In this document: piece by piece, positions 778 to 9,472 of the stretch | Position numbering within the stretch: the first letter of the stretch is position 1 | Layout of the letters: each line of letters begins with the position of its first letter | Assembly (NCBI GenBank): GCA_945876985.1 | Contig: CAMCQX010000014.1 | Span: forward strand, 1-12,397 | Direction of reading: 5' to 3' | DNA: 12,397 nucleotides | Origin: Chitinophaga pinensis | GTDB taxonomy: Bacteria > Bacteroidota > Bacteroidia > UKL13-3 | Notes under the pieces: model-generated | Databases searched by the model: none | What the model saw: the letters and a program-made list of their open reading frames with translations, nothing else | Told to the model about the DNA's origin: nothing | Position numbers and translations under genes: made by a program

Positions 778-2628
778 ATGAATCCAACAATAGATAAAGA
801 TTTAGAATCAGTTGTTATTCGCTTTGCAGGCGATAGCGGTGATGGAATGCAATTAACAGGAACACAGTTTACAAACTCAGCAGCTTTATTTGGAAACGAT
901 TTAGCTACATTTCCTGATTTTCCTGCTGAAATTCGTGCTCCTATAGGAACCCTTGCTGGTGTTTCTGGCTTTCAAATTCATTTTGGTTCAACTCGTATTC
1001 ATACCCCTGGCGATATGAGTCATGTATTGGTGGTAATGAATGTGGCTGCTTTAAAAGCAAATATAAAAAACCTAGTAAAAGGCGGTGTTATCATTGCCAA
1101 TTCCGATGGTTTTGATTCTAAAAACATGCGTTTGGCAAATGTGCCGGAAGATAAAAATCCGCTTACTGATGGATCCCTTGACGAATATGATTTAAAAATT
1201 ATAGATGTAACTAAAATAACTAGAGCAGCTTTAACCGATAGTGGTTTAGGCGTAAAAGAAATTGACCGTTGTAAAAACATGTTTGTTTTGGGTTTAGTTT
1301 ATTGGATGTATAACAGAAACATGGAAAGTTCTATTGCTTTTGTAAAAGCAAAGTTTAAAAAGAACGAAGCCGTAATGAACGCCAATTTAAAAATTATGCA
1401 AGCAGGATGGAGTTATGGCGAAACAACAGAAATGTTTGCAAACAGATACAACGTGGCTCCCGCAAAAATGGATGCTGGTGTATACAGAAGTATCATGGGA
1501 AATCAAGCTGCAGCATTAGGCTTAATTGCAGCTTCAGTAAAATCAGGATTATCATTATTTTATGGCACTTATCCTATTACTCCTGCTTCCGATATTTTAC
1601 ATGAATTATCAAAGTATAAAAACTTTAATATAAAAACTTTCCAAGCTGAAGATGAAATAGCTGCTATTTGTTCTTCTATTGGTGCATCATTTGGCGGAAG
1701 CTTAGCAATTACCGGTTCTTCAGGACCTGGAATAGCTTTAAAAGGTGAGGCCATTGGATTAGCAACCATGTTAGAATTACCATTGGTAATAGTAAATGTT
1801 CAGCGTGCAGGACCAAGTACTGGCTTACCTACTAAAACAGAGCAAGCAGATTTAATGCAAGCTTTTTATGGTAGAAATGGAGAATGTCCTTTAGTAATTG
1901 TTGCTGCGCAATCACCTGGCGATTGTTTTAACATGGCTTATGAAGCTTGTAGAATTGCTTTAGAGCATATGATTCCAGTATTTTTATTAACTGATGGTTA
2001 TATTGCTAATGGTTCTGAACCTTGGATGTACCCTCAATCAAAAGATTTACAAGATATCAAAGTAGAATTTGCTCCTGAAAAAACAAATACTGACGATAAG
2101 TTTATGCCATACCTACGTGACGAAAAATTAAGTCGTCCATGGGCATTACCAGGCACAAAAGGATTAGAACATAGAATTGGTGGATTAGAAAAACAAAATA
2201 TTACAGGTAATATTAGTTATGATCCAAATAACCATGAAGAAATGGTTCACTTACGTCAACAAAAAGTAGAAAATGTAGCTAATTATATTCCGTTACAAAC
2301 CATGGACAATGGCCCAGAAACTGGCGATTTGTTAATATTAGGTTGGGGTGGAACTTATGGTGCTTTAAAAACTGCTACCAGCATTTTACGTGGCGAAGGT
2401 TTAAATGTATCACACGCGCATTTGCGTTATATCAGTCCTTTTCCTAGTAATTTAGGTGAAATATTGAAAGGTTTTAAAACAGTAGTTGTTCCTGAACTAA
2501 ACAATGGTCAATTAGTGAAAATTATCCGTGATAAATATTTTATAGATGCTATTCCTTACAACAAAATTCAAGGATTACCATTTATGAGTACTGAAGTAGT
2601 AAATAAAATTAAAGAAATTTTAGCATAG
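778..2628 (+). CDS. korA: 2-oxoacid:acceptor (2-oxoglutarate:ferredoxin) oxidoreductase, alpha subunit with fused gamma domain
   Basis: This is the large subunit of an enzyme that oxidatively decarboxylates a 2-oxoacid, most likely 2-oxoglutarate, to acyl-CoA with ferredoxin as electron acceptor, in the cytoplasm. The 616-residue length is that of the fused gamma-alpha form. The N-terminal gamma domain (about 1-190) carries GDSGDGMQLTG at 18-28. The alpha pyrimidine-binding domain starts near 240 and carries YPITPAS at 265-271, EDE at 291-293, GSSGPG near 313-318 and GPSTGLPTKTEQADL from 345. A C-terminal transketolase-like domain (about 500-616) includes GWGGTYGALK. The ATG at 778 is a good start because the conserved domain begins within 12 residues. 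The beta subunit is korB at 3089, but the two genes are separated by an unrelated small gene. No ferredoxin-like delta subunit is present. Substrate could be another 2-oxoacid; 2-oxoglutarate is the usual call for this architecture. Confidence 0.93.
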   Translation: MNPTIDKDLESVVIRFAGDSGDGMQLTGTQFTNSAALFGNDLATFPDFPAEIRAPIGTLAGVSGFQIHFGSTRIHTPGDMSHVLVVMNVAALKANIKNLVKGGVIIANSDGFDSKNMRLANVPEDKNPLTDGSLDEYDLKIIDVTKITRAALTDSGLGVKEIDRCKNMFVLGLVYWMYNRNMESSIAFVKAKFKKNEAVMNANLKIMQAGWSYGETTEMFANRYNVAPAKMDAGVYRSIMGNQAAALGLIAASVKSGLSLFYGTYPITPASDILHELSKYKNFNIKTFQAEDEIAAICSSIGASFGGSLAITGSSGPGIALKGEAIGLATMLELPLVIVNVQRAGPSTGLPTKTEQADLMQAFYGRNGECPLVIVAAQSPGDCFNMAYEACRIALEHMIPVFLLTDGYIANGSEPWMYPQSKDLQDIKVEFAPEKTNTDDKFMPYLRDEKLSRPWALPGTKGLEHRIGGLEKQNITGNISYDPNNHEEMVHLRQQKVENVANYIPLQTMDNGPETGDLLILGWGGTYGALKTATSILRGEGLNVSHAHLRYISPFPSNLGEILKGFKTVVVPELNNGQLVKIIRDKYFIDAIPYNKIQGLPFMSTEVVNKIKEILA

Positions 2629-2634
2629 ATAATG

Positions 2635-2669
2635 TTGGATTTTGGATTTTGGATGTTGAATTTTAAATT
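2635..2669 (+). repeat. Heptamer repeat array, left arm of the inverted repeat around the four-helix-bundle gene
   Basis: Five consecutive 7-bp units, TTGGATT twice, then TTGGATG, TTGAATT and TTAAATT, begin 6 bp after the korA stop codon and end 6 bp before the ATG of the small gene. The first 20 bp (2635-2654) can pair with 3058-3077 with 18 Watson-Crick pairs and two G-U wobbles and no mismatch. Weaker pairing continues inward to about 2662. Confidence 0.8.
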
Positions 2670-2675
2670 GATAAA

Positions 2676-3035
2676 ATGGTAAAGAAAGAAAATTTAATTT
2701 TAGAAAAAAGCTTTACTTTTTCACTTTCAATTATTGAATTATTTAAGCATTTAAAATCAAACAATGAATTCATTATTTCAAAACAATTATTAAGAAGCGG
2801 AACCAGTATAGGTGCTAACATAAATGAATCAACAGCTGCTCAAAGTAAAGCAGATTTTATTCATAAAATGTCAATTGCATCAAAAGAAGCTAGAGAAACA
2901 AAATATTGGTTAATGCTACTAAATAAAAGTCAACTGGTTGTAATAAATTTAAATAAATATTTAAAAGAAATAGATGAAATTATCAATATCTTAACTGCTA
3001 TTGTTAAAACATCACAACAAAATAACAAAAACTAA
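2676..3035 (+). CDS. Four-helix-bundle protein, 23S rRNA intervening-sequence (IVP) family
   Basis: The 119-residue protein belongs to the small four-helix-bundle family first known from open reading frames in the intervening sequences of bacterial 23S rRNA, related to the Avd accessory protein of diversity-generating retroelements. The family signatures are visible: RSGTSIGANINES at 40-52 between helices one and two, and FIHKMSIASKEARETKYWL at 61-79. The C-terminal helix is about 93-115 and the tail is Asn/Lys-rich. It has no signal peptide and is predicted cytoplasmic. Biochemical function is unknown for the family; a nucleic-acid-binding role is suspected from its settings. It lies in the same direction as korA and korB and fills the space between them, bounded on each side by heptamer repeats in inverted orientation. 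It has no place in the oxidoreductase, so it is probably an insertion into a previously contiguous korAB operon. There is no 23S rRNA here. Confidence 0.88.
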   Translation: MVKKENLILEKSFTFSLSIIELFKHLKSNNEFIISKQLLRSGTSIGANINESTAAQSKADFIHKMSIASKEARETKYWLMLLNKSQLVVINLNKYLKEIDEIINILTAIVKTSQQNNKN

Positions 3036-3049
3036 AAATTGGGTTTTGT

Positions 3050-3084
3050 AATCCAAAATCCAAAATTCAAAATTCAAAATTTAT
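3050..3084 (-). repeat. Heptamer repeat array, right arm of the inverted repeat around the four-helix-bundle gene
   Basis: On the plus strand this is a run of CCAAAAT, CCAAAAT, TCAAAAT and TCAAAAT units; read on the minus strand it is ATTTTGA and ATTTTGG units, the same heptamer as the left arm. It lies between the stop of the four-helix-bundle gene (3035) and the start of korB (3089), ending within about 5 bp of the korB ATG. It could therefore affect korB translation if it folds with the left arm. Confidence 0.8.
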
Positions 3085-3088
3085 AGTT

Positions 3089-4111
3089 ATGAGTGAAGTA
3101 ATAGAGAAGTTAACATCAAAAGATTTTTCATCAGACCAAGAAGTGCGTTGGTGCCCAGGTTGTGGTGATTATAGTATATTGAAACAAGTTCAAACTATTT
3201 TGCCTGACTTAGGTCGTCCAAAAGAAGAGTTTGTTTTTATTTCAGGTATTGGTTGTTCTAGCCGTTTTCCATATTATATGGATACTTATGGCATGCACTC
3301 CATTCATGGAAGAGCCACCGCAATTGCTACTGGCTTAAAAGCTACCAGACCCGAGCTTTCTGTTTGGGTAATTACTGGTGATGGTGATTCAATGAGTATT
3401 GGTGGAAACCATTTTATTCATATGCTTCGCAGAAATCCTGATTTAAATGTATTGTTATTTAATAACCAAATATATGGTTTAACTAAAGGACAATATTCAC
3501 CTACAAGTGAGCAAGGAAAAGTTACTAAATCATCTCCTGTAGGGAGTGTTGATTATCCGTTTAACCCCATTGCACTAGCACTTGGCGCTGATGCGACTTT
3601 TGTTGCTCGCAGCATGGATAGAGATCCAAAACACCAACAATATGTTATAAAAAGAGGTTACGAACATAAAGGAACTTCATTGATAGAAATATATCAAAAC
3701 TGTAATGTATTTAACGATGGTGCTTTTGAAATTTATACTGAAAAAAGTAGCAAAAAGGAAAATATATTATTGATGGAAAATGGTAAACCATTAATTTTTG
3801 GTGCCAACGATGACAAAGGAATTATGTTAGATGGTTTTAAACCTATAATTGTGAACTTAGCAGACGTGTCGGCAAATGATTTATGGATTCACGATGAAAC
3901 AGATTTAGTAAAAGCTACTATTCTTTCTCGTTTTTACGATGATCCTACTCATCCTGACCACAAACCTCGTCCTTTTGGCGTATTTTATGTAAATAACAAC
4001 AAAGAAACATTTGATACTTTATTTAACAAACAAATGGAACATGCCATGGAAAATGGCATGGGAGACTTAGACAAACTAATAGCAGGAAGAGAAACTTGGG
4101 TAGTTAACTAA
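3089..4111 (+). CDS. korB: 2-oxoacid:acceptor (2-oxoglutarate:ferredoxin) oxidoreductase, beta subunit
   Basis: This is the thiamine-diphosphate-binding subunit that pairs with KorA and carries an iron-sulfur cluster. The start is supported because the typical WCPGCGDYSIL motif begins at residue 21. Cluster ligands are probably Cys22, Cys25, Cys56 (GIGCSSRF) and Cys205 (YQNCNVFND), the usual pattern for the single [4Fe-4S] cluster of two-subunit enzymes. The ThDP/Mg motif GDGDSMSIGGNH is at 97-108, followed by NNQIYGLTKGQ from 125. The 340-residue length matches the family. korB follows korA in the same direction but is split from it by the repeat-bounded small gene, leaving 53 bp between that gene and korB. 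A strong terminator follows directly, so this is the end of the transcription unit. No separate promoter was recognised for korB. Confidence 0.94.
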   Translation: MSEVIEKLTSKDFSSDQEVRWCPGCGDYSILKQVQTILPDLGRPKEEFVFISGIGCSSRFPYYMDTYGMHSIHGRATAIATGLKATRPELSVWVITGDGDSMSIGGNHFIHMLRRNPDLNVLLFNNQIYGLTKGQYSPTSEQGKVTKSSPVGSVDYPFNPIALALGADATFVARSMDRDPKHQQYVIKRGYEHKGTSLIEIYQNCNVFNDGAFEIYTEKSSKKENILLMENGKPLIFGANDDKGIMLDGFKPIIVNLADVSANDLWIHDETDLVKATILSRFYDDPTHPDHKPRPFGVFYVNNNKETFDTLFNKQMEHAMENGMGDLDKLIAGRETWVVN

Positions 4112-9115: not shown

Positions 9116-9472
9116 ATGACCTGGAAAGTAATAAAAACCGAAAAAGAATACCATAATGCTTCCATCAGATTAATGGAAATATTTCATACAGCACCAAATT
9201 CTGCTGAACATGATGAATTAGATTTACTAATGGTTTTGATAAAGGATTATGATGATAAGCACTATCAATTACCTGAACTTGATGCCTTGGAAGTTATTAA
9301 ATATAAAATGTTAGAAATGGGCATCAAAGCAAAAGATTTAGAACCAATTATTGGGAGCAAAGGGCATGTTTCTGCTGTGCTTTCAGGTAAACGAGAAATA
9401 ACTTTAAAAACTGCACAAAAACTAAAAAATTATTTCAGTATTCCTGCAGAGGTATTTTTGCATAGTGCATAA
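9116..9472 (+). CDS. HigA-type HTH transcriptional regulator / antitoxin, solitary
   Basis: A 118-residue cytoplasmic DNA-binding protein of the HigA antitoxin-like type. The N-terminal half (about 1-55, rich in acidic residues: TAPNSAEHDELDLL) resembles the leader of COG5499-type HigA proteins. The Xre-type helix-turn-helix runs from about 57 to 108, with IKYKMLEMGIKAKDLEPIIG, SKGHVSAVLSGKREITLKTA as the turn and recognition helix, and LKNYFSIPAEVF at the end. A HigB-type toxin would normally lie directly upstream, but that 275-bp stretch has no such gene, and downstream is the end of nadE on the other strand. It is therefore a lone antitoxin or regulator. It is framed by 30-bp direct repeats, the second starting 4 bp after the stop, which suggests the gene and its promoter region travel or arrived as a unit. 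Self-repression is usual for the family. Confidence 0.85.
   Translation: MTWKVIKTEKEYHNASIRLMEIFHTAPNSAEHDELDLLMVLIKDYDDKHYQLPELDALEVIKYKMLEMGIKAKDLEPIIGSKGHVSAVLSGKREITLKTAQKLKNYFSIPAEVFLHSA

Follow-up and report, generated by a model that had tools for sequence, protein, structure and literature searches.

A four-helix-bundle (IVP) gene between inverted heptamer arrays at the korA-korB junction, and related cassettes at operon junctions of Bacteroidota

Results and Discussion

The korA-korB junction in the window

The stretch of DNA analysed here (the window; 12,397 nucleotides of contig CAMCQX010000014.1, Chitinophaga pinensis, assembly GCA_945876985.1) carries the genes for both subunits of a 2-oxoacid:acceptor oxidoreductase, between which lies a small gene of the four-helix-bundle or IVP family (Table 1). 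The initial annotation had described a 119-residue IVP gene which fills the gap between korA and korB and is transcribed in the same direction, and this description is borne out. The korA gene ends with a TAG codon (positions 2626-2628), the IVP product matches PF05635 with an E value of 2.3e-25 (Pfam) and also TIGR02436, and the korB product scores 260.6 bits against TIGR02177, just below the cut-off of 261.9.

Table 1. Features of the korA-korB junction and of the cassette that it contains
Feature	Position	Strand	Basis
korA, 2-oxoacid:acceptor oxidoreductase subunit alpha, upstream host gene	778..2628	+	Pfam POR_N/POR/PFOR_II; TIGR03710 above cut-off
Left heptamer array, TTTTGGA / TTTTGAA type, inverted copy of right array	2631..2667	+	
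IVP gene, 119 aa	2676..3035	+	PF05635 / TIGR02436 'four helix bundle protein'
Right heptamer array, AATCCAA / AATTCAA, inverted copy of left array	3045..3081	+	
Whole cassette as RNA, arms predicted to pair, loop holding the IVP gene	2626..3091	+	fold prediction
korB, beta subunit of the same enzyme type, downstream host gene	3089..4111	+	Pfam TPP_enzyme_C; TIGR02177 PorB_KorB

On both sides the IVP gene is separated from its neighbours largely by 7-nt repeat arrays, which TRF places at 2635-2664 and 3050-3081, i.e., beginning 6 nt after the end of korA, as had been annotated, and ending 7 nt before korB rather than the 5 nt or so previously given. The two arrays are inverted copies of each other, a point absent from the initial annotation: the arms listed in Table 1 are 81% complementary over 37 nt, with an inner segment of 92% over 24 nt. 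Among 1000 dinucleotide shuffles of both gaps, arm complementarity reached at most 32 (observed, 39) and the 7-nt self-match at most 44 (observed, 60 of 86 positions). The cassette RNA is predicted to fold with an energy of -83.2 kcal/mol (z -3.75), a stability equalled by none of 100 shuffled sequences.

The reported absence of a transposase, an integrase and rRNA was reproduced, in that neither enzyme was found among the nine ORFs (of 17 listed in the window) that were scanned against Pfam, and an Rfam scan of the window returned no RNA family and so no rRNA. Rfam likewise gave no match in 20 further loci picked for their odd neighbours, and no target-site duplication was apparent when empty and full korA-korB junctions were compared by eye. 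Elsewhere in the window, positions 9116-9472 encode a 118-residue HTH_3 protein.

The same junction in related genomes

A korB match was obtained in 54 genomes and 30 loci were read; two of these were without a korA match, and the junction was read in the other 28, ten of them from the genus of the host genome (G000; 1.86 Mb, 66% complete). Within the genus, the junction holds an IVP cassette in four of ten genomes (G000, G002, G004 and G006, with a broken frame in G004) and is empty in another four, the korA stop and korB start lying 3 nt apart in G001, G005 and G008 and the genes overlapping in G007; in these four korA terminates with TAA, as opposed to TAG in the window. In the remaining two genomes (G003 and G009; loci L013 and L010, respectively) the place of the IVP gene is taken by a gene pair, of which the first member is small, lacks a Pfam match and is antitoxin-like by its position 5' of the second, a PIN-domain gene. 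The PIN frame of G003 is interrupted, while a left arm resembling that of the G004 element persists there.

The initial annotation had proposed a cassette rather than an ancestral operon member and had suggested that short empty junctions be sought in related korA-korB loci. Such junctions are indeed present in close relatives, and korA and korB of the empty G001 and the occupied G002 are 99% identical; the IVP gene is not found at this site in all relatives along the phylogeny of korAB, but in four of ten genomes of the genus. Outside the genus, 15 of 18 junctions contain neither an IVP gene nor a remnant, the matched parts of korA and korB being separated by 9-178 nt, a distance that counts the stop codon and any unmatched codons. 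The other three comprise an IVP gene that is 62% identical, with different arms and an in-frame stop (L015), an internally deleted IVP remnant that has kept both arms (L028), and a scar-like gap of 96 nt.

The IVP reading frames of G000 and G002 are identical but for 1 of 357 nt. The neighbouring 400 nt of korA and of korB have diverged by 4.2 and 5.0%, respectively, a contrast indicative of recent exchange; with the arms included, the korA-korB gap is only 96.9% alike in these two genomes. The left array of L007 is one unit shorter than that of L005. As judged from the compared sequences, turnover of junction content between relatives is shown. The first korB codons (window positions 3089-3110; loci L005-L014) are of an MSEV type or a METT type in sister species, in a pattern that does not follow overall korAB identity, hinting that junction alleles may have been exchanged along with some flanking DNA.

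IVP cassettes at other operon junctions of the genus

It had also been suggested that the host genome be searched for further copies with the same flanks. Three more IVP genes were found, located between sufB and sufC, between pntA2 and pntB, and upstream of a gene without an NCBIfam match that is probably hmgA; the expectation of shared flanks did not hold, as each copy has heptamers of its own and has only the 7-nt spacing and an R-G core in common with the others. The genus as a whole yielded 76 IVP matches, distributed over all ten genomes, of which 74 were retained and, after removal of one with insufficient flanking sequence, 73 analysed; this list omits the korAB copy of G004 and one half of a split copy in G007. 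Both neighbours are co-directional with the IVP gene in 63 of the 73 loci. According to family models, the neighbours include sufB and sufC, two pntA parts and pntB, two metH parts, serC and serA, paaA and paaB, nrdB and nrdA, an RND pump with an outer-membrane efflux protein, and a GDP-mannose dehydratase. Of 99 genomes sampled from the phylum of the window, 75 contain IVP genes; the cassette phenomenon is genus- and phylum-wide, not peculiar to korAB.

Several junctions are occupied by different cassettes in different genomes. The sufB-sufC junction carries a cassette in all ten genomes, consisting of one IVP lineage (broken in G007) or a gene-less form, with two arm types; an earlier count of two IVP lineages was rejected, the IVPs of G000 and G003 being 69% identical. 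The gene-less cassettes at this site, present in six genomes (L305, L307-L309, L311 and L313), measure 88-110 nt, have inverted heptad arms, and are predicted to form a stable hairpin in all six (z -3.5 to -7.3). Two IVP lineages, 35% identical to each other, or a GxxExxY gene are found at metH1-metH2, two IVP lineages at pntA1-pntA2, and three IVP lineages or a gene-less cassette at pntA2-pntB, where the 118-nt gap of G007 has arms (0 of 300 shuffles as good). Gene-less cassettes at pntA1-pntA2 were considered and rejected, since the 106-nt gap of G005 and the 87-nt gap of G006 are without arms (70 and 259 of 300 shuffles as good, respectively). Other sites appear stably inherited, which counts against fast turnover everywhere: one IVP lineage occupies the hmgA-like site in seven of ten genomes and one family occupies nrdB-nrdA in six of ten.

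At paaA-paaB of G003 and G004 the flanks are 96 and 93% identical, the IVP genes 63% (nucleotide). The IVP gene is more alike than the measured flanks in eight of 66 same-site pairs; these eight lack full independence, as a single trio accounts for three of them, and for one of the eight the comparison covers a single flank. In addition, 73 pairs of IVPs that are at least 60% identical reside at junctions without homologous neighbours; their arms are plainly alike in some cases (L160/L165, the best at 89.6%; L175, L240, L284) and unlike in others, and this similarity across junctions suggests spread to new sites. Recent exchange between species, together with spread to new junctions in some lineages, is likely from these comparisons; no jump within one genome was seen.

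Arms and heptads of 262 IVP loci

A total of 262 IVP loci were compared, namely the 73 genus loci, another 111 that belong to the family or the phylum, and 78 of the 80 in named records (two were dropped for short flanks), the last being partly metagenome bins labelled as other phyla. Both latter sets are best-scoring matches, not random draws, the named records being the best-scoring among the matches listed. The complementarity of an element's own two arms exceeds the 95th percentile of mismatched arm pairs in 58 of 73 genus loci, 77 of 111 family and phylum loci and 47 of 78 named loci (among the matches listed), and own pairs in the genus score a median of 35, versus 17 for mismatched pairs. 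Over both flanks of all 262 loci, the self-match is 0.41 at lag 7, 0.38 at lag 14 and 0.36 at lag 21, the other computed lags up to 15 giving 0.27-0.32, and the 7-nt period was also recovered separately in subsets of 96 and 78 loci.

Of 192 arms, 140 (12 after shuffling) entered a phase alignment, which gave a core of NNNN-R-G-T, with G at 89%, and the same core emerged when left arms and reverse complements of right arms were taken separately. Its information content is 3.03 bits, compared to at most 2.68 in 20 permuted controls. The heptad sequence itself differs between elements, the NNNNRGT core being what they have in common, and IVP lineage predicts it only weakly (0.49 vs 0.45). Array-like runs, with a median of 4.7 units, occur in 191 of 270 representative arms and in seven after shuffling; the representatives, on which the 96-locus subset and the phase alignment also rest, are the best-armed members of clusters at 60%. 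This choice raises arm figures, but does not enter into the comparisons of own and mismatched arms or the self-match over all 262 loci. ORFs and neighbours were called mechanically throughout.

Among orthologues, an element's own arm pair is better than the cross pair in 28 of 38 comparisons, worse in nine and equal in one, which is suggestive only of a possible concerted evolution of the arms. Arm mismatches comprise 53 G-U against 93 A-C in the representatives (19 vs 37 elements) and 43 against 82 in the genus. As G-U wobble does not exceed A-C mismatch, selection on a sense-strand RNA stem is not claimed, and recognition of the arms as DNA is at least as likely.

On cyanobacterial plasmids an IVP match was obtained in 36 records, from which 12 loci were fetched. 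Their arms match, at scores of 29-63, in eight and score 16-22 in four (uncontrolled values), and the IVP gene is sense with both neighbours in nine and antisense to both in three, including one at nrdB-nrdA. Three of the nine sense plasmid cassettes (L292, L296, L301) are located inside CRISPR-Cas operons, twice at cas6-cas4 and once at cas10-cmr3. The nrdB-nrdA junction is a recurrent target across phyla, being occupied in the sense direction in the genus and in antisense on a Nostoc plasmid (L295).

Orientation and position at host operons

Where both neighbours point the same way, the IVP gene is sense in 109 and antisense in four of 113 cases (135 representatives; p 1e-27), the corresponding figures over all 262 loci being 219 and eight. 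A preference for co-directional junctions as such was rejected: such neighbours are found at 113 of 132 IVP sites and at 181 of 213 sites elsewhere in the same loci, so only orientation is biased. In 51 of the 67 representatives that could be measured, no more than 12 nt separate the start of the left arm from the stop codon of the upstream gene, and this stop codon is TAG in 51 of 109 cases as compared to 46 of 235 control genes (p 4e-7). Of 37 cases that allow the test, 20 have the AG of TAG in phase with the heptad core; by eye, the window element does not.

The IVP protein

Comparison of the window IVP with its G006 orthologue gave a dN/dS of 0.05, and among orthologues at ten sites all defined, non-zero pairs but one (0.38) lie between 0.02 and 0.23, several dS values being above 1 and saturated. 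These low ratios indicate that the protein is maintained, and purifying selection on IVP is shown by this comparison. Of the solved relatives, 2RLD matches the window protein with an E value of 5e-26, and the more distant 2GSC matches the alignment with an E value of 2e-31; both are listed with five chains, which fits a pentamer. A reading of the genes as anti-phage defence was discarded, two IVPs having returned no PADLOC match.

GxxExxY genes as a parallel cassette class

A second class of cassettes at operon junctions, parallel to that of IVP, is built on GxxExxY (PDDEXK_3) genes, and its inverted arms have a period of roughly 9 nt. The genus contains 23 matches to PF13366, two of which have internal stops and were left out of the analysis. 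The flank self-match at lag 9 is 0.357 in the genus and weaker, 0.31, in the phylum set, while both neighbours are co-directional in 20 of 21 and 24 of 29 cases, respectively. Four of these genes (L326, L328, L332, L338) are located at metH1-metH2 or its left part.

Comparison with known systems

The nearest described counterpart is the intervening sequence (IVS) of Coxiella 23S rRNA, which, according to the available portion of PMC4990558, encodes S23p, a member of the same protein family, in the sense direction of the host transcript, is 428 nt long with a 28-bp terminal inverted repeat, carries tandem heptameric repeats upstream of its ORF, and is excised by RNase III. The window element is likewise bounded by inverted repeats, and the Coxiella heptamers fit NNNNRG(T/A) by our own reading. 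The host sequence differs, a protein operon junction with no rRNA found in the window as opposed to 23S rRNA, as does the state of the protein: the window class is under purifying selection, whereas the Coxiella S23p is reported as decaying and probably not expressed (PMC4990558, same portion). The window element accordingly shares with the IVS class a PF05635/TIGR02436 protein and heptameric arm repeats, lies outside 23S rRNA, and has a stem closing around the ORF in the transcript by sequence and folding prediction only.

Heptamer families have also been described as arrays alone, namely TAACTGA in Beggiatoaceae, Cyanobacteria and Bacteroidetes, GGGAATC in Xanthomonas, and GGGGA(C/T)T and ttgtcag in Nostoc (available text of PMC4679880, PMC4692102 and PMC2408588). 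Similar to the window arms, these are 7-nt tandem arrays in intergenic DNA, and the heptamers of Xanthomonas campestris also occur as 70 inverted pairs; the terms S23, four helix and intervening (sequence) do not appear in the available text of PMC4679880 and PMC4692102. The cassettes and the heptamers published for Coxiella, Nostoc and Xanthomonas may form a single class.

The gene-less forms at sufB-sufC and pntA2-pntB resemble MITEs in their size and paired inverted arms, but differ from them in that the arms are heptad arrays which vary between elements rather than one fixed terminal repeat, and in that no parent transposase is known. Neither a transposase or integrase among the nine scanned ORFs of the window nor, by eye, a target-site duplication was found, so that the element does not classify as a transposon or insertion sequence.

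Proposed nature of the cassette

The comparison establishes, at the level of sequence, the anatomy of the element, its sense orientation, its presence or absence in close relatives and its replacement by other cassettes at the same junction. We regard it as probable, with room for doubt, that the window element is a small selfish cassette of intervening-sequence type which has adapted to protein-coding operons. It consists of one IVP gene between two inverted 7-nt arrays, presumably lacks its own promoter, judging by its position, and lies between co-directional genes in the sense direction, from the upstream stop codon onward. In this placement host transcription can express IVP and both host genes stay intact, and the view of the initial annotation that the cassette is tolerated because co-transcription is preserved is consistent with the data. 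The arms are predicted to pair in the transcript, where RNase III may cut them, as in 23S rRNA intervening sequences, and would thereby split the operon mRNA into korA, IVP and korB parts. The oligomeric IVP protein, in turn, would bind the R-G heptads and help the cassette, or its allele, to spread.

It is conceivable, though unlikely, that the cassette is instead a domesticated regulator, which would use its IVP protein or arm hairpin to set the relative amounts of the two flanking gene products by attenuation, mRNA cutting or translational uncoupling. Purifying selection on IVP would suit such a role, as would the fact that many cassettes separate components of a single enzyme or pathway (gene names are confirmed for suf, pnt, metH, ser, paa and nrd), the occupation of sufB-sufC in all ten genomes and the strong hairpin that its gene-less cassettes retain. 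A regulator is harder to reconcile with a korA-korB junction that is empty in four of ten close relatives and holds another gene pair in two, with the replacement of the cargo at one junction by unrelated proteins, and with sites that have no common pathway.

An origin of the arrays as ordinary polymerase-slippage repeats of intergenic DNA, with IVP genes as incidental neighbours, is improbable. Slippage has been proposed for heptameric repeats at 7 nt generally (cited in the available text of PMC4679880 and PMC4692102), and the one-unit difference between L007 and L005 is of the kind that it would produce, yet it does not give rise to two arrays that match each other in inverted orientation, as seen in the excess of own over mismatched arm pairs, and the pattern recurs with a common core around IVP genes in records of several phyla.

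We give very little credence to retro-mobility, whereby an Avd-like IVP would hold the transcript and a reverse transcriptase supplied in trans would convert it back into DNA, in the manner of diversity-generating retroelements. The PF05635 family is described as resembling Avd, a homology suggested by structural alignment (available portion of PMC10053308), and sense orientation suits an RNA intermediate. Against this, RVT_1 was detected in two of ten genus genomes, several of them incomplete, as opposed to IVP genes in all ten; the eight without a match include G000. A reverse transcriptase requirement is not supported, although mobility in the past is conceivable. That IVP is an ancestral kor operon member which was repeatedly lost can be set aside almost entirely: the frame with an in-frame stop in L015 and the remnant in L028 belong to two other genera, as such a history would have it, but most out-of-genus junctions lack any IVP trace and IVPs of many lineages occupy many other junctions.

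Beyond the probable selfish cassette of the window, we tentatively propose, with somewhat less conviction than would make it an even call, a new class of transposase-free mobile operon-junction cassettes, in which inverted arrays of R-G heptads surround an interchangeable small gene (mostly IVP, sometimes none) at the upstream stop codon. Special or decayed cases of this class would include the intervening sequences of 23S rRNA as well as the orphan heptamers known from cyanobacteria, Beggiatoaceae and Xanthomonas, and the GxxExxY class with its repeats of roughly 9 nt would be a parallel one that competes for the same junctions. Given the median array of 4.7 units, a pentameric IVP might grip about five heptads per arm, one per subunit. 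The cyanobacterial STRR repeats are presumably linked to the class as well, a connection that we draw partly from their published sequences.

If the cassettes are mobile, the operon structure of a whole phylum would be subject to rewriting by an element without a known recombinase. The proposal offers a testable role for a protein family lacking an assigned function, as well as a common explanation for several orphan heptamer-repeat families; although the IVP family takes its name from 23S rRNA, the copies examined adjoin protein genes, often those for parts of one enzyme. A search of open-licence literature on IVP or four-helix-bundle genes together with inverted or heptamer repeats retrieved, among the papers listed, no description of these cassettes at protein operons. 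In the available portion of PMC5524665, Table 5 records, for two strains of Flavobacterium columnare, a four helix bundle protein between guanylate kinase and nicotinate-nucleotide adenylyltransferase that was counted as part of a phage region, and this gene looks like another operon-junction IVP cassette.
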